Of a stretch of DNA of 43,413 bases, positions 3,863 to 43,413 are shown one piece after another. The stretch's first letter is position 1. Each line of letters begins with the position of its first letter. The notes under the pieces were generated by a model. It saw only the letters and a program-made list of their open reading frames with translations, was not told the origin of the DNA and did not search any database. Both the position numbers and the translations under genes were made by a program. Location of the stretch: assembly GCA_903875055.1 (NCBI GenBank), contig CAIQUX010000029.1, positions 1-43,413 on the forward strand, read 5' to 3'. The DNA comes from an uncultured Bacteroidota bacterium (lineage in GTDB: Bacteria; Bacteroidota; Bacteroidia; Chitinophagales; Chitinophagaceae).

Positions 3863-4567
3863 ATGAAAGCTATCATTATCGACGACGATTTGATGAATAT
3901 AGAACTAGTTGAACATTTTATTCGAAAATATGCCCCTGATGTAGAGGTCATAGGCAAGGCAGCTAATCTTGATGAGGGCATACAGGAACTGACCCATAAA
4001 AAACCAGACCTGGTGTTTTTGGATATCGAAATCAATGAAGATACCGGTTTTGATATTCTTCAAAGTATCCATCTGCCCGATTTGCTGGTGATACTGGTGA
4101 CAGGCCATGAGAATTATGGCCCTGAAGCTTCTGAAGCGAGGGTGATAGGCTATCTGCTAAAACCGATGTCCATCAAATCGTTTACATTGGCTGTGAACCG
4201 TGCGCGAGAAGAATACGGTAAACGTCAGTCAGCGAAACCGTTCAAGAATCTTGTGCATGTCACGCATAAGGGGCAGGCTATCGTGTTTCATTATGAACAA
4301 ATTTCCCGCTTGCAGGCCAGTAAAAACTATACCATCATCAAAACCATCGACGGCAATGAGTATCTCGAATCGAACCCACTTAGCTATTATGAAGCTAATC
4401 TGCCTTCGTCGCTATTTTACAGGGTACATTATTCCCATATCATCAATATTAAGGAGGTGGCTTCCATCGTTCGTCAAAAGTCGGATAAGATATTGCTTCA
4501 TTCAGGTGATCTGGTACCGGTATCGGATCGCCGTCGTAAGGAAATTTATGCGCATTTGTTTATATAA
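3863..4567 (+). CDS. LytTR-family response regulator (receiver + LytTR DNA-binding domain)
   Basis: The protein has 234 residues. The receiver domain (1-120) shows the acidic cluster D7-D9, phospho-acceptor D54 (LVFLDIEI), T80 and K100 (YLLKPM). A LytTR domain (about 135-232) carries the typical blocks ISRLQASKNYTIIKTIDG, FYRVHYSHIINI and LVPVSDRRRKEI. LytTR proteins bind imperfect direct repeats through beta-strands. Its usual partner would be a LytS/YehU-like kinase, but none is adjacent, so it may take phosphate from the divergent kinase or from elsewhere. It is divergent from the 7-TM/kinase operon over a 215-bp intergenic region that holds the AGGTAT inverted repeat. The receiver-only gene at 1158 is a shortened paralogue. 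Confidence 0.95.
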   Translation: MKAIIIDDDLMNIELVEHFIRKYAPDVEVIGKAANLDEGIQELTHKKPDLVFLDIEINEDTGFDILQSIHLPDLLVILVTGHENYGPEASEARVIGYLLKPMSIKSFTLAVNRAREEYGKRQSAKPFKNLVHVTHKGQAIVFHYEQISRLQASKNYTIIKTIDGNEYLESNPLSYYEANLPSSLFYRVHYSHIINIKEVASIVRQKSDKILLHSGDLVPVSDRRRKEIYAHLFI

Positions 4568-4832
4568 CAAATACACACAATGGCCTTGACATTGATTATT
4601 ATTTATCTTCATTAATATGTCACAGCAGGATTCTAATGACCTTAGAAAAATGGCGTTAAGAAAATTTTGACTGATGGCGTTAAGAAATGAAAACAATTGT
4701 TTGATGCTTAATAAAGCATAACTGCCAAATCTAAAAAAGACAGAAGAAGACAGAAAAAGAGTTGCATAGCTTTTTCATTTTAGCCAACAGTTAAAATTTT
4801 TAACCTATTTTTCGTCAGTCTAGATTTTTTGC

Positions 4833-4860
4833 CCCACTTTTTTATCATGAAAAAAGTGGG
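4833..4860. repeat. Perfect 11-bp inverted repeat (possible terminator-like hairpin)
   Basis: CCCACTTTTTT and AAAAAAGTGGG are separated by the loop ATCATG. The stem is perfect, but no T-tract follows on either strand and it is about 270 bp past the LytTR stop, so classical intrinsic termination is doubtful. Confidence 0.5.
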
Positions 4861-4922
4861 AAAATTCCATTAACCGAACTAATACAATCTAAATACCGCC
4901 AGATTCTTAGATAACTCATATT

Positions 4923-4930
4923 TATGTTTG
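4923..4930 (+). promoter_or_regulatory. Possible -7 element (TATGTTTG) ahead of the repeat array
   Basis: TATGTTTG fits the Bacteroidota consensus TAnnTTTG. No clear TTG lies about 20 bp upstream. If used, transcription would start near 4937 and run rightward through the 21-bp array towards the gene at 5957. Confidence 0.35.
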
Positions 4931-5025
4931 TAAAATAATGAGTAACTCCTTGACAAATAGAAATCTCAATTCGTTAATTGCATCTTGCACCCCCACTCCT
5001 TTCTCCTCCTACTCCCAACTCCTAT

Positions 5026-5823
5026 TTCTGCAACGGTAGTCTAAAAAGCCGCAGTTATACATTTATTTCTGCAACAGTTAACTTGACCTTGCGCCGCCCC
5101 TGCAAGCTCTTTAGGTTTGTCAGCATGAAAAGGGTACAAGCAACTGCCATCATTACAAGACCAGGGAAGGTTAGCAAAGTATCAGATACTACTGATACAT
5201 CACCCGCCAAACTGTTTAGCAGTCCAGCTACCGGCAATGGTAACCCATGCCACCCTGATAGAGTTGTACTTAATCTCCTTGGTTCTCTAAACCTCTTCCA
5301 TAGCCCTGTATCTGATATCCTTGGCTACCCATCCGTCAGTATTAACCACGCCGCTATCCTACTTGGTCGACCCGCTAAACTTACTAGTAATTCCTCAAAG
5401 TTAGCGGAAGTCCCCTCAGCTAGTTTTGGTCCCCCATCAGATAATTTCAACCGCCCATGGGTCAGTGCTGGTCCCCCATCAGTTGCTGCGGGTGGACCAA
5501 GATATCGCTTTAGACCTGCCTCACTGTTTGAGGGGTGTCCCGCGAAGGACTATGAAGGTCCCGCTGTTTGTGAGGGGGGACTATCACCCATTGCCGGGGG
5601 ACCCGCATCGAATGAGGGTAGACCCGCGGAAAAAGTTAGACGTCTAGCCAGCACTGCGGCACGGCCCGCGAGACTTCATGGGCGGTTGAAACCTGTTGCG
5701 GGGTGCTTGAAATATACTGCGGGATGGTTGAAAAACACTGCGGGGAGGTCAATATCTCGTGGTGGTGGACTAATACCCAAGCGTAATTTACCTTCCAAAT
5801 CTGCGGCTTTTCTAAGTAGGCTT
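5026..5823. repeat. Degenerate 21-bp tandem repeat array, about 38 units
   Basis: Cutting the sequence every 21 bp from 5026 gives about 38 units. Many start with GCGG or GAGGG, often have an internal palindromic core of the type GGGTnnACCC or GACCCGC, and end in a more variable A/T-richer third. Clear examples are units at 5425 and 5467 (15 of 21 bases shared), 5593 and 5614 (shared AGACCCGC/GGACCCGC core), and 5698 and 5719 (17 of 21 shared). The register is strongest from about 5362 to 5823 and much weaker towards the left. The array is bounded by an 11-bp inverted repeat, AAAAGCCGCAG at 5044-5054 and its complement at 5801-5811. Because 21 is a multiple of three, the plus frame is open from 4978 to 5862 and would encode heptads such as AGRPAKx. 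I treat that as a by-product, since the composition is unlike a normal protein. Confidence 0.75.
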
Positions 5824-5956
5824 CATCGATATATTGTATTGATCAAGACCATACCTCCCTGAAAGGATGAGGCTCGTTGATGGCATCAATAGGATGTGCT
5901 CAGCAAAATTAGATTCAACCAATTTTCTATTTCAAAACGTTTAAATCAATTTAACT

Positions 5957-6652
5957 ATGCATCATGATTTCGTAAAGAAGAGCGACATGGATTTTGCTCT
6001 TCAACTGACAAACTTCAGCAATAAATTAGGCAACCTGAAAGAAACGCTCGGTCTCACCGATGAGGACGTAAGCGAGGCTGCGGTAGCCAGCGATTATTTC
6101 AAATATGTGCTCGACATGCATGTGGCCCATACCGACCGTATCAAAAACTGGACTTCCTACAAAGACCACCTGCGTAAACCCGGTGTGGGCCATCCGGCAG
6201 TGAGTGCAGCACCTGTTACCTTGACCGTGCCTCCTGCACCCGATCAGGCACCCATGGGTATCGAAAACTGGTTCAGGTTGCTGGTACGTCGTATCAAAGG
6301 CAGTAAAAACTATACCGAATCCATAGGACAGGATTTGGGTATAGTGGCTGTGAATACAGGTATCGATACCGTCAATGTAAAACCTTCACTCAAGGTAGAA
6401 CTAGTGGCTGGCCAACCCCTCATCATTTGGAAAAAGGGACAGATGGATGGTATCGAGATATTCAAAGACAGCGGCAATGGAGGCTGGATCATGCTTAAAT
6501 ATGACCAACGTCCCAATCATCTCGACACCAGTGCCTTACCGGCAGTCGGTGTCTCTGCCAACTGGAAGTACAAGGCCATCTATCGCTATCAGGATGCCCG
6601 AGTGGGTAACTGGAGCGATGAAGTGAATGTGGTGGTGAGCGGGTCGGTGTAG
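5957..6652 (+). CDS. Conserved hypothetical protein: helical N-terminus plus Fn3-like C-terminus
   Basis: This 231-residue protein has no signal peptide and no membrane segment, so it is probably cytoplasmic. Residues 1-70 look alpha-helical (FALQLTNFSNKLGNLKETLGL). A proline/alanine linker follows (about 75-100), then a short block RLLVRRIKGSKNYTESIGQD with DLGIV. The C-terminal 95 residues read as a beta-sandwich of Fn3 type (IIWKKGQMDGIEIFK, WKYKAIYRYQDARVGNWSDEV). I have the impression that this arrangement recurs in an unnamed Bacteroidota/Verrucomicrobia family, but I cannot name a function. It starts 134 bp after the 21-bp repeat array, on the strand a rightward array transcript would use, and is followed by a good terminator. 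A link between array and protein is a hypothesis. Confidence 0.8.
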   Translation: MHHDFVKKSDMDFALQLTNFSNKLGNLKETLGLTDEDVSEAAVASDYFKYVLDMHVAHTDRIKNWTSYKDHLRKPGVGHPAVSAAPVTLTVPPAPDQAPMGIENWFRLLVRRIKGSKNYTESIGQDLGIVAVNTGIDTVNVKPSLKVELVAGQPLIIWKKGQMDGIEIFKDSGNGGWIMLKYDQRPNHLDTSALPAVGVSANWKYKAIYRYQDARVGNWSDEVNVVVSGSV

Positions 6653-39765: not shown

Positions 39766-42700
39766 TTACATATTATTCTTCTTAAAATTCTCTGCTTGCT
39801 CAAATATCTCGACATAAACCTCATCTCTTTCAACAGGAGGATAACCGAATTCGTCCAGCAGAAGTATCAGGCCTACTTTTAAGGCCGACTTAATATCATC
39901 ACGCTTATTCCAATCTGGATATCTCGCTTGTCCTTCAACAAGTTCTTTCACGGCTTTTGCCAATTCAATCAGCTGATCTTCAGGATACTTGAAATCATAC
40001 TTGACACATAATGATTTCAGGATATCATAAAAGGCTTTTTCTTCAAAGTCAATTCCTAAGGCGTCACCGGCTGAAAACTCACGGTGGACTTCCCAAATCA
40101 AATCGGTTAACGCATTTGCCATCTCCTCATAGACTTCACTTCTGAGAATATCATTGGCATCTCTGTTATTGTAACGCTCTACTAAAGCCTGCATCTTTTT
40201 TGAAAAGTCAATGCCCTTTACCCTGTTAACCTTTCTGATTTCTCCTATCACCTTTGCAAGCAGTTGTTGAAGCAATTTTATTTTGGTATTCGGCAATTTG
40301 ATTTTATCAATCTTCGCCAGATAATCCTCATCGAACAGGTCTTGTTCCGTTTCGTTTTCATCACCGAGTTTAAAAATCTCTTCCACGCCTTCACTTTGCA
40401 ACGCTTCCTTTATCATTTCCCTGACTTTGGCGTTCATCTGTGCCGTGTCGGGTGCATTTCCTTTCGTTAATTTGAAGATGATGGAACGAATCGCCAAATA
40501 GAAGTGCGTATAATCTCTTTCTGATTGAGTCAGTTGTTCGCTTCCTGCACAAATATCATAAGCTGCCTTTAATCGCTTTACCAAACCCATAAATCGGGTT
40601 TCAAATTCCTTGCTTTGCTGCACAAACTCAGCGGCCAAATTCAATGTATTCAATTGCTGAATGGTTGTGCCTTGAAAATATTTTGAACTATCAAATGTGT
40701 GAAACAGTTTGGCCAACAAGTCTACATGGTTTCGTACGATGATGATGGATTCTGCAATATCTTCAAAATTGTCTTTGTCACCTTCGCTATATTGCTTCAA
40801 GGCCAGATTCATTTGATTTTTGATACCTATATAATCGATTACCAATCCTTTGTTCTTGCCTTCAAACTTGCGGTTTACGCGTGAAATGGTTTGTATTAAA
40901 TTGTGGCGCTGAATTGGTTTGTCAATGTAAATACTGTCTAAGGCAGGAATATCAAAACCAGTGAGCCACATATCCACCACTATGGCAATCTTGAAATTCG
41001 ATTTTTCGTTTTTGAATTGCCGGTCAAGTTCCTTACGTTGATCTTTAGTTCCCAACAAATCATACATGTCCTTTGGGTCATCTTGTCCTCTGGTTGCGAT
41101 CAATTTGATTCGTTCAATCGGTTTTAGTTCTCGCTTATGTTTATCGGTGAGTTCTACACCTTCTTCCGCTGCCCGTATTACATTCCATGCCGGTTTTAAT
41201 GCAAGGATGTATTTATACAACTCATAGGCTATTTCTCTTGTGCTGCACACAAACATGGCTTTACCTATCACCGTAGAACCTTCCGAAACACGTTTCTCAT
41301 AATGATTCACGAAATCATTTGCGACTTCCTTTAAACGATCAGGATCTCCGATAATGGCATACATCTGTGCCATTTCCTTTTTACTTTGTTCTATCTGATT
41401 TTCATTACTTCCTATTTCCGCACATCGTGCATAGTATTCTTCAATCTCCTTCAGTTTTGCATTATTCAGCAATACTTTGGCGGCCCTGCCTTCATATACG
41501 ATACGCACTGTTATTTCATCTTTCACCGATTCCGTCATTGTATAGGCATCAACCACTTTCCCAAACACATCCAGTGTTGCATCAATGGGAGTTCCGGTGA
41601 AACCGACAAAGGTGGCATTGGGTAATGAATCATGCAGGTATTTGGCGAAACCAAAGGTCTTTGTAACTCCTTTTTCCGTAACCTTTACTTTTTGATCAAG
41701 GTTTACCTGACTTCTATGTGCTTCATCTGAAATACAAATGACATTGGTTCTATCTGTCAGCAGTTCAGTATCTTCTGTAAACTTATGTATGGTGGTTAAG
41801 AATACACCTCCGCTTTGTCTGCCTTGAATTAATTCTCTCAAATTGGCTCTGCTTTCTACGCTTACCACGGTGTTGTCTCCTATAAAGCTTTTAGCATTGA
41901 CAAATTGCTCCGAAAGTTGGACATCCAAATCGGTGCGGTCTGTGATTAATACTATCGTAGGACTTCCAAAGTATTCACTCTTCATTAAAAGCCTGGTCAG
42001 GTAAAGCATGGTGTAGCTCTTTCCACAACCTGTCGCACCAAAATAAGTTCCTCCCTTTCCATTTCCTTGTGGCTTTTGAGCAAGTATAATATTATCATAT
42101 AAGGCTCTGGCTGCATAGTATTGCGGATAGCGACAAACTATCTTCTCATCCTTTTTTGAACTGTCAGGAATGTAAATGAAGTTTCGAATTATATCCCGCA
42201 ATCGGTTTTTGTGAAACATGCCCTGTATGAGTGTATACATACTATCAATGCCATCTACTTCTTTTGCTAAACCTGCTACCCTACGCCAGGCATAATAAAA
42301 CTCATAAGGAGCAAAGAAGGAACCTGCTTTATTGTTTACCCCATCGCTGATAACACAGAAGGCGTTGTATTTAAAGAGTTCCGGAATGTCTCGTCGATAC
42401 CGTATCGTTAATTGTTTGAAGGCATCATAAATGGTGGCTTCCTCACGAATGGCAGATTTGAATTCAAATACCACTAATGGCAAACCGTTGATATAGACAA
42501 TACCATCAGGAATACGTTTTTCAGAACCAACAATTTCTAATTGGTTGACAAACTTGTAAATATTATTGTCGGCTTGATAGGCTTCTTCAGGTTCAGCAAA
42601 AATGGAAAGTAATTGATCTGCTTCGGGTTGGCGGTGTTTGTTTAACCCGGCATAATTAATAAGTTGTATATAAATGTCTTTTTGATTGCGGTCTTCTCGT

Positions 42701-42978
42701 TTGAGAATAAAACCATCTGAAAGCATTTTTACAAATGTTTTATTGCTCTCATATAGGTCAGAAGCAGAAAGTGATTTAAGTTGAAGAATAATTGATTTGA
42801 TTTCGTTTACGGTGATTCCCTGACCAGCGTATTGCATCAACAGAAAGTTTTGCAAATCTTCTTCTATCAATACTTCGTCAGGCTTACGAATAATCGTAAT
42901 ACCCAAATGATGGGGAAAGCCTTCCTGCCCCAGCAACTCGGTAAACGCCCTCTCTAATTTTTCTTCAGTGAATTTCAT
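39766..42978 (-). CDS. hsdR: Type I restriction enzyme, HsdR subunit
   Basis: This is the ATP-dependent translocase and nuclease subunit; with HsdM and HsdS it cuts DNA lacking the host methylation pattern. The 1070-residue length is normal. The N-terminal nuclease domain has PD-(D/E)xK residues: D158 in RIPDGIVYINGLPLVV, then E172 and K174 in FEFKSA. The SF2 motor has Walker A at 314-321 (GATGCGKS), DEAH at 418-421 and motif III FVGFTGTPID. Motif VI is in HNLIQTISRVNRKFEGKNKG. The C-terminal helical part (about 770-1070) binds HsdM. The start codon overlaps the stop of the transposase gene (ATGA). hsdM and hsdS are not in the window, and upstream of the transposase is where they would be expected. 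Confidence 0.97.
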   Translation of the reverse strand: MKFTEEKLERAFTELLGQEGFPHHLGITIIRKPDEVLIEEDLQNFLLMQYAGQGITVNEIKSIILQLKSLSASDLYESNKTFVKMLSDGFILKREDRNQKDIYIQLINYAGLNKHRQPEADQLLSIFAEPEEAYQADNNIYKFVNQLEIVGSEKRIPDGIVYINGLPLVVFEFKSAIREEATIYDAFKQLTIRYRRDIPELFKYNAFCVISDGVNNKAGSFFAPYEFYYAWRRVAGLAKEVDGIDSMYTLIQGMFHKNRLRDIIRNFIYIPDSSKKDEKIVCRYPQYYAARALYDNIILAQKPQGNGKGGTYFGATGCGKSYTMLYLTRLLMKSEYFGSPTIVLITDRTDLDVQLSEQFVNAKSFIGDNTVVSVESRANLRELIQGRQSGGVFLTTIHKFTEDTELLTDRTNVICISDEAHRSQVNLDQKVKVTEKGVTKTFGFAKYLHDSLPNATFVGFTGTPIDATLDVFGKVVDAYTMTESVKDEITVRIVYEGRAAKVLLNNAKLKEIEEYYARCAEIGSNENQIEQSKKEMAQMYAIIGDPDRLKEVANDFVNHYEKRVSEGSTVIGKAMFVCSTREIAYELYKYILALKPAWNVIRAAEEGVELTDKHKRELKPIERIKLIATRGQDDPKDMYDLLGTKDQRKELDRQFKNEKSNFKIAIVVDMWLTGFDIPALDSIYIDKPIQRHNLIQTISRVNRKFEGKNKGLVIDYIGIKNQMNLALKQYSEGDKDNFEDIAESIIIVRNHVDLLAKLFHTFDSSKYFQGTTIQQLNTLNLAAEFVQQSKEFETRFMGLVKRLKAAYDICAGSEQLTQSERDYTHFYLAIRSIIFKLTKGNAPDTAQMNAKVREMIKEALQSEGVEEIFKLGDENETEQDLFDEDYLAKIDKIKLPNTKIKLLQQLLAKVIGEIRKVNRVKGIDFSKKMQALVERYNNRDANDILRSEVYEEMANALTDLIWEVHREFSAGDALGIDFEEKAFYDILKSLCVKYDFKYPEDQLIELAKAVKELVEGQARYPDWNKRDDIKSALKVGLILLLDEFGYPPVERDEVYVEIFEQAENFKKNNM

Positions 42979-43413
42979 TGCATATAAAATTTATCTTCTG
43001 CCCATTTTGCCGGATTATTTAGTATATAATTTGAAATCTGAAGGTATGATTCCTCATCGCGTATGATATGTTCATAATAATTGCGTTGCCACAATGTACC
43101 ATCAAACCGCGGCCATCCCAATGTTTTTACCCCACGGATATATTCAACCGTGGTTATTGATTTAAATGCGTCCATCATATCACCAATGGTTTTGGTAGGG
43201 GCGACCCTTGTGGTCGCCCTATTGTTATTGTCAACACCATCATTGTTTTCACCACCATCATTGTTGGGGGCAACCACAAGGGTCGCCCTATTGTTATTGT
43301 CAACACCATCATTGTTTTCACCACCATCTTTGTTGGGGGCAACCACAAGGGTCGCCCTATTGCTATTGTCACCACCATCATTATTTTCACCAACAACATT
43401 GTTAGGGGCAATC
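42975..43413 (-). CDS. REP-associated (Y1/RAYT-type) transposase, C-terminal part, 5' end outside window
   Basis: The frame is open from the stop at 42975 to the right edge, about 145 residues. The last 75 (TIGDMMDAFKSITTVEYIRG ... GTLWQRNYYEHIIRDEESYL ... YILNNPAKWAEDKFYMQ) match the C-terminal end of IS200-like REP-associated tyrosine transposases. The catalytic HUH and Tyr residues would lie upstream, beyond the edge. Before this part comes an unusual in-frame repeat, rich in Asn, Asp and Gly (NNDGGENNDGVDNNNRATLV), built from 69-bp DNA repeats that contain REP hairpins. The stop overlaps the hsdR start by four bases, so the gene sits inside the restriction operon. RAYTs are usually domesticated single-copy genes that mobilise REP sequences. 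Confidence 0.82.
   Translation of the reverse strand, partial: IAPNNVVGENNDGGDNSNRATLVVAPNKDGGENNDGVDNNNRATLVVAPNNDGGENNDGVDNNNRATTRVAPTKTIGDMMDAFKSITTVEYIRGVKTLGWPRFDGTLWQRNYYEHIIRDEESYLQISNYILNNPAKWAEDKFYMQ
43198..43413. repeat. 69-bp tandem repeats with REP-type hairpins, at least three units
   Basis: GTCGCCCT recurs at 43213, 43282 and 43351, an exact 69-bp period. The third unit runs to the window edge. The first hairpin, GGGCGACC-CTTGT-GGTCGCCC (43199-43219), is perfect; the following ones read GGGCAACC-ACAAG-GGTCGCCC with one mismatch. This is the GGGCGACC/GGTCGCCC class of REP sequence. Since 69 is a multiple of three, each unit adds 23 codons, with the REP read as RATLVVAP. Confidence 0.8.

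Follow-up and report, generated by a model that had tools for sequence, protein, structure and literature searches.

Here we describe an apparently unreported class of bacterial DNA arrays, in which mirror-symmetric sites recur two turns of DNA apart in front of the members of one gene family. The array from which the analysis started lies in the window, the whole 43,413-nt stretch of DNA from an uncultured member of the Chitinophagaceae that was analysed. Period, phase and dyad symmetry are kept without a coding signal and without covariation between hairpin halves, the arrays are linked to the gene family, further arrays of the same consensus type (here called a dialect) are present in the same genome, and arrays and gene family co-occur in the stretches sampled. 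Full-text literature searches found no description of such arrays in the portions of the literature that they returned, which does not establish their absence from print.

A phased array of diverged 21-bp units

Across positions 5026-5823 the autocorrelation at lag 21 is 0.391, whereas none of 500 dinucleotide-preserving shuffles exceeded 0.291 (z 9.3); harmonics appear at lags 42, 63 and 84, and the six strongest 400-bp autocorrelation windows in the whole 43 kb start between 5101 and 5601. The 21-bp periodicity proposed in a first-pass annotation of this DNA is therefore real. The same annotation counted about 38 units; a tandem period-21 array is indeed present, but it comprises roughly 30-34 units in total. 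Taken by itself the segment 5026-5194 is not significant (z 1.3 at lag 21), so the array stands out clearly only from about 5194, the signal being strong in 5194-5823. Its left edge falls at about 5093 by segmentation and at about 5110 by homology to a second copy on another contig (C66), and its right edge lies near 5823 (Table 1). Tandem Repeats Finder, suggested as a check, does report a period-21 array, but only at 5686-5744; it misses the remainder because the units have diverged.

What is conserved in the window array is a dyad-symmetric core, GG-N4-CC, every 21 bp, and the earlier description of a partly palindromic, GC-rich core in something that is neither a CRISPR nor an ordinary minisatellite holds. 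Units are present in both orientations (Table 1), and a unit matches the other units at 7.5 of 21 positions both directly and as their reverse complements. The 11-bp inverted repeat said to mark both ends exists, and no repeat as long as this arose when the two 84-bp ends were shuffled 500 times, but it is atypical of related arrays: of the 57 tested, only 10 are flanked by an inverted repeat exceeding the longest in any of 20 shuffles, which rules it out as a general array boundary. A scan of 4500-6100 gave three promoter-like sites against 3.3 expected, which is chance level; the terminator-like sites in the same interval, three against 1.3 expected, were likewise set aside.

Table 1. Features of the array and the linked gene, in window coordinates.
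Feature	Position	Strand	Basis
Phased array of diverged 21-bp units with dyad core GG-N4-CC, strand-symmetric	5093..5823	.	autocorrelation; segmentation 5093-5684, period-21 signal on to ~5823; C66 copy
Left arm of the 11-bp boundary inverted repeat, AAAAGCCGCAG	5044..5054	+	shuffle test
Right arm of the 11-bp boundary inverted repeat	5801..5811	-	shuffle test
15-bp part of a unit, exact reverse complement at 5677-5691	5445..5459	+	sequence match
Reverse-complement partner of 5445-5459	5677..5691	-	sequence match
Gap from array to start codon of the linked gene; a promoter would be expected here	5824..5956	.	position only
Linked gene, 231 aa; predicted N-terminal helical domain and C-terminal fibronectin-III fold	5957..6652	+	model, fold comparison, relatives

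Constraint acts on the DNA unit

The genome to which the window belongs (3.47 Mb in 329 contigs) holds a colinear second copy of the array on contig C66 and, on contig C311, a third array that has diverged further. Alignment of the window array (C29) with the C66 copy by MAFFT gives 633 columns with 417 identities (65.9%) and no internal gap, and blastn with deliberately cheap gaps places seven gap openings over 641 columns. Copied arrays elsewhere are similarly colinear, with one gap between L118 and L119 and a gap-free match of 86.5% over 364 bp between L121 and L122.

When 630 columns of the C29/C66 alignment are sorted by phase, 29/180 positions are mismatched at the six core positions and 184/450 elsewhere (Fisher p 9e-10), the six positions having been picked after column information had been seen. 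Mismatch is at its minimum in the core, with 0.17 and 0.10 at the GG (index 3 and 4) and again 0.17 and 0.10 at the CC (index 9 and 10), and it peaks in the middle of the linker, at 0.63 for index 17. By codon position, by contrast, it is flat (74, 67 and 72 of 210 each; p 0.76). Constraint therefore lies on the dyad-symmetric 21-bp unit and its spacing and not on codons, and the window array carries no coding signal. The core consensus is matched at 81/116 positions in C29, 73/104 in C66 and 72/84 in C311.

An open frame does run through 4978-5862, with fewer stops than 98% of phase-preserving shuffles, and the first-pass annotation had accordingly listed a heptapeptide-repeat coding region among its guesses. 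Since mismatch is equal at the three codon positions and stop codons interrupt the C66 copy, that reading is scarcely credible; the frame also has no Pfam match.

The annotation's guess of a string of RNA hairpins or, more broadly, the idea of a long structured RNA preceding the gene, we consider very improbable. The consensuses are palindromic, being dyad-symmetric in 18 of 28 gene-linked arrays (p at most 0.05, column order permuted). Among 39 arrays folded against phase-preserving shuffles the mean z is -1.15 on one strand and -0.96 on the other, with z below -2 in 10 and 11 of them; an 845-nt stretch of the window is somewhat more stable than dinucleotide-shuffled versions of it (20 shuffles; z -2.25 and -2.59), and one of the 28 gene-linked arrays, L044, shows excess pairing (z 2.97). 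These signs of folding are about equal on both strands, however, and the window array gains nothing over phase-preserving shuffles (z 0.11 and -0.48). Over the 28 gene-linked arrays the two halves give 1114 Watson-Crick matches where 1119.9 +- 15.2 are expected from the columns, that is, no covariation. Nor was there covariation between unit halves in C29, C66, C311 and two arrays of relatives, and pairing across the linker exceeded chance in only one of those five (G057, p 0.019). Moreover, the self-complementarity of a unit falls below its complementarity to other units (mean difference -0.42 +- 0.17 of 21 in 29 arrays), and a period of 21 would suit B-DNA rather than A-form RNA. RNA hairpins should covary; independent variation of half-sites at a constant two-turn spacing fits a row of dimeric DNA-bound proteins. 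Two narrower RNA candidates were also rejected: a giant hairpin, anti-diagonal pairing being significant in only 1 of 29 arrays, and a known RNA family, there being no Rfam match at gathering score in the window. Of the three original guesses a protein-binding platform thus fits best, the binding itself being something that we infer.

Arrays accompany one gene family

Similar arrays, which the first-pass annotation had proposed to seek in related genomes, are found upstream of the relatives of the linked gene. Among family genes with enough upstream DNA, 51/63 carry an upstream array, or 49/61 when L024 and the window locus, whose arrays were known beforehand, are left aside; from the sample of 195 genomes, the loci scored are part of the listed family matches. 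In the first set, 28 of 33 relatives have a segmentation score above 30 in the 900 bp upstream (lowest 34.3; top block shuffle 16.7). Within 500 bp upstream, 28/33 score above 20 at period 21, at most 1/33 does so at any of the periods 18, 19, 20, 22, 23, 24, 27 or 30, and 5/33 do at period 15. Controls exceed 20 in 1/30 cases downstream and in 2/30 gene bodies (L047, L057). A second set, from the phylum search, has arrays in 7/12, and a third, gathered after the scoring rule had been fixed, in 16/18. The arrays end a median 167 bp before the start codon and have a median size of 10.9 units, segmented sizes ranging from 5.5 to 28.

Twelve family genes have no upstream array (L027, L041, L043, L046, L060, L064, L069, L073, L076, L077, L083 and L091); L043, with no ATG in frame, and L046, re-scored with its likely start, are counted among these misses. 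At L077 a strong period-21 array (score 446) was seen on the downstream side of the family gene. Left out of the count were L030, whose match contains one stop and whose array (score 152.6, at 4771-4937) lies before the gene match; L035, L054, L080 and L082, with only 203, 66, 5 and 96 bp upstream, respectively; L066, where the gene was not located; and L061, L062 and L067, which repeat loci already counted.

Arrays also co-occur with the family at the level of genomes. Stretches sampled from genomes with the family, on contigs known to carry family genes and outside the matches, contain 15 intergenic period-21 arrays scoring above 30 in 799 kb, 12 of them dyad-symmetric; a further 17 of 32 period-21 matches had been set aside by rule as lying inside long ORFs. 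In five genomes without the family there are three such intergenic arrays in 660 kb, none dyad-symmetric; all three come from one genome (G034), and two are visibly 7-bp repeats. The dyad threshold of 0.45 was set post hoc, once the scores were available, and the counts without it are 15 versus 3. In the first 400 kb, a score above 30 was reached in 10 of 780 tiles at period 21 and in none at period 20 or 22.

Array dialects recur within genomes

Array consensuses differ widely between loci, and dialects differ between the family genes of a single genome. Proteins that are 72-77% identical can have unrelated array consensuses, with similarities of 0.30 (L036/L055, 72% identity) and 0.42 where the background median is 0.28. 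Close relatives can also share a consensus (L063/L071, proteins 97% identical and arrays 0.97 similar); for L037/L058 the values are 48% and 0.75. Overall, array similarity correlates with protein identity (Mantel r 0.22, p 0.0005, 2000 permutations), a weak relationship that does not name the binder.

Arrays of one dialect occur again in the same genome, away from family genes. The C29 consensus is common to C66 (similarity 0.86) and C311 (0.75), both of which were found by their similarity to it. L116 and L103b were found in control stretches and are for that reason unbiased cases; they resemble the gene-linked arrays L040 (0.90) and L096 (0.73), respectively, where 99% of the background lies below 0.55. 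Of the seven arrays lying apart from family genes, three fall below that level even in their best match within their own genome (G147C154 0.45, L103a 0.54 and L104 0.51). Further same-dialect arrays were found in the own genome for six of six dialects searched: C66 and C311 for C29, two arrays for L040, about six places for L092, one array each for L032 and L053, and for C19 the array C126, a weak match (E 0.0035) with an array similarity of 0.72. Searches of 13 other genomes for each of the dialects L032 and L053, and of 13 genus relatives for C29, found no array of the dialect sought.

A family HMM detected no family gene beside the further same-dialect arrays in flanks of up to about 1.5 kb per side; the C66 and C311 flanks reach contig ends, beyond which a family gene is possible. 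A gene-linked array together with same-dialect arrays elsewhere in the genome suggests matched pairs of protein and DNA array. Arrays without a family gene need not be promoters: one weakly scored array, L128, sits between convergent genes. In genome G147, two arrays away from known family genes (L188 5272-5399 and L025 1856-2065) look by eye to be of the same dialect.

The linked protein

The 231-aa product of the linked gene matches no Pfam or NCBIfam model, and its only sequence match in the PDB has an E value of 0.51. An AlphaFold model (pLDDT 93.1) predicts an N-terminal helical domain and, C-terminal to it, a fibronectin-III (FN3) fold, matched over 87 residues with an rmsd of 2.1 (Z 11.4). 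The helical half is modelled with similar confidence on its own (pLDDT 91.2); Foldseek gave no match for it below E 2.4, and the best Z among 51 chains was 4.3, which does not imply a new fold. We found no recognised DNA-binding fold in the protein and, by Pfam, NCBIfam and the structure model, no transposase or recombinase domain. The family is not basic, with a median pI of 6.1 over 35 members. Identity in the helical domain is lower than in the FN3 domain in 1741 of 1953 protein pairs, as might be the case for a recognition domain.

Relatives occur in 12/195 genomes of the family-level sample, that of the window included, nine of these twelve having 5 to 12 matches, and in 6/296 genomes of the phylum sample. 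Further relatives lie at five loci in records of Gallionellales and Methylococcaceae (Pseudomonadota). A search of 72,556 plasmid records with the window protein gave no match at E 1e-5.

Relation to known repeat systems

Iteron and plasmid-centromere arrays consist of repeats of about 10-22 bp that are bound by Rep or ParR proteins. The arrays described here resemble them in being tandem sites in helical phase, here with a kept period of 21, in adjoining the gene of a presumed binder, and in a presumably private specificity. They differ in lying, as far as seen, on chromosomal contigs, with many arrays per genome, in having up to 28 segmented units that are highly diverged, and in a helical-FN3 partner that has no Rep or Par match in Pfam or NCBIfam.

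Two papers on REP/REPIN sequences and RAYTs (PMC3116915, PMC3733652) describe palindromic intergenic repeats, with one gene and dispersed copies of the same type in a genome, which is the arrangement seen here; their palindromes are single or paired, whereas ours form a tandem phased 21-bp array. As a class, REP palindromes, which bear GTAG/CGTC tags, are 20-40 bp long, in contrast to contiguous arrays of 5.5 to 28 units, and the RAYT is a Y1 (HUH) transposase, for which the linked protein and its relatives have no Pfam or NCBIfam match, the model showing helices and FN3. By analogy, then, the array would work like iteron or plasmid-centromere arrays and the gene with its dispersed copies like REP-RAYT, while the partner gene is unlike either.

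CRISPRs are likewise regular arrays adjoining a gene family, but here there is no constant repeat with unique spacers, the unit is 21 bp with window units matching at 7.5/21 on average, and the linked protein has no Pfam or NCBIfam model. Minisatellites (VNTRs) share the tandem repetition; they carry no constraint beyond it, whereas here phase and dyad are kept although units have diverged this far, one period underlies many consensuses, and the core is protected from mismatch.

A model for the arrays and its alternatives

According to our model, the array would be a DNA-level element offering one dyad-symmetric protein-binding site per 21 bp, that is, per two turns of B-DNA, which would place all sites of an array on one face of the helix with one dimer per unit. 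Array and downstream helical-FN3 gene would together form a module, in which the linked protein, or a complex containing it, would bind cooperatively along its own array, dimer beside dimer, and control its own gene from there. The same protein would also occupy the further same-dialect arrays elsewhere in the genome, and each protein-array pair would drift to a private consensus, resulting in several non-interfering dialects per genome. We infer the protein binding, the identity of the binder, its dimeric and cooperative mode and the autoregulation from the patterns described above; for the core of the proposal, cooperative dimer rows of the helical-FN3 protein or its complex on its own array, we regard the chances as approaching even. 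The linked protein is the most economical candidate binder because dialects follow individual genes, because dyad arrays were not seen in the sampled genomes without the family, and because conservation is lower in its helical than in its FN3 domain. Against it stand the lack of a recognised DNA-binding fold, the median pI of 6.1, the weakly scored L128 array with its convergent neighbours, and the family genes that lack an array upstream (12 of 63, L077 with its downstream array among them); and unrelated consensuses at 72-77% protein identity would need very fast change of specificity. In a broader form, which we offer more tentatively, the modules would amount to a self-diversifying addressing or nucleoprotein-filament system, with a private 21-bp array for each helical-FN3 protein, insulated dialects, copies that serve as addresses only, and array sequence that changes faster than the protein on a fixed geometry.

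It is conceivable that the arrays are instead operators or nucleoprotein scaffolds for another DNA-binding protein, with the helical-FN3 gene merely one of its targets. In its favour are the same phased dyad geometry at all arrays, the presence of arrays away from family genes, and the lack of a recognised DNA-binding fold in the linked protein. A single factor is, however, insufficient when dialects differ between the family genes of one genome; keeping the period at 21 bp across so many consensuses would call for an entire family of factors, and the one found beside the arrays is the linked family. Dyad arrays were also not seen in 660 kb of genomes without it, and we judge this alternative rather unlikely.

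More doubtful still is that array and gene constitute a complete REP-RAYT-like mobile element, with lone arrays as dependent copies and a protein that helps them spread. The colinear copying of whole arrays (C29/C66, L121/L122), the pattern of one gene-linked array with further same-dialect arrays per genome, the sporadic distribution of the family across the two genome samples, and the flanking inverted repeats at some arrays would all be accounted for; but the protein has no transposase or recombinase domain, a general terminal repeat is lacking, and dispersal leaves the conservation of phase and core after copying unexplained. A functionless satellite, produced by slippage and copying, would explain the fast sequence turnover of the arrays and the higher-order repeats of two or four units that some contain, yet one period and a kept phase over unrelated consensuses, a core that mutates less than the linker, and a position upstream of one gene family all argue against it, and we give it very little credence.

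Should the binding model be right, several protein-DNA address pairs coexist in one genome with constant geometry and changing sequence, so that specificity and architecture would be separable, and nature would have provided a set of orthogonal DNA-binding pairs. A class of spurious ORFs with heptad repeats would likewise be accounted for, and one would have to ask what an FN3-fold protein does on DNA. Even with another binder, the arrays form a gene-linked, genome-specific class with one fixed period, of which the literature as far as searched yielded no description.

Neighbouring repeats and insertion sequences

Several features were noted in or near the arrays. Within L068, L040, L036, L055 and L074, blocks of two or four units (42 or 84 bp) are themselves repeated. 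At locus L119, an array at 1400-1870 without a nearby family gene lies between the arms of a 14-match inverted repeat, GGCACACGCGAGGGC, with a similar sequence at about 2133. Shortly upstream of the 21-bp array of L024, in genome G057, is a run of 7-bp CGAGCAA-type repeats (2210-2300).

In genome G126, insertion sequences that we take to be IS3-like, with an rve-integrase OrfB of 319 aa and an OrfA of 132 aa, lie at several same-dialect arrays or within them (L121, L123, L124, L125, L127 and L129); L123 and L127 look like the two halves of one array split by such an element. Arrays of this type may be insertion hot spots.

To the left of the second array on C66 (L013 1-1740), several dispersed copies of a REP-like repeat of about 70 bp surround an ORF at 541-1047 on the minus strand, which presumably carries an HUH-like motif and has no Pfam match at E 0.001. 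Finally, near the end of the window, a 69-bp tandem repeat of 2.9 copies (43212-43411) lies a short way upstream of the gene for the R subunit of a type I restriction system (39766-42978, minus strand).
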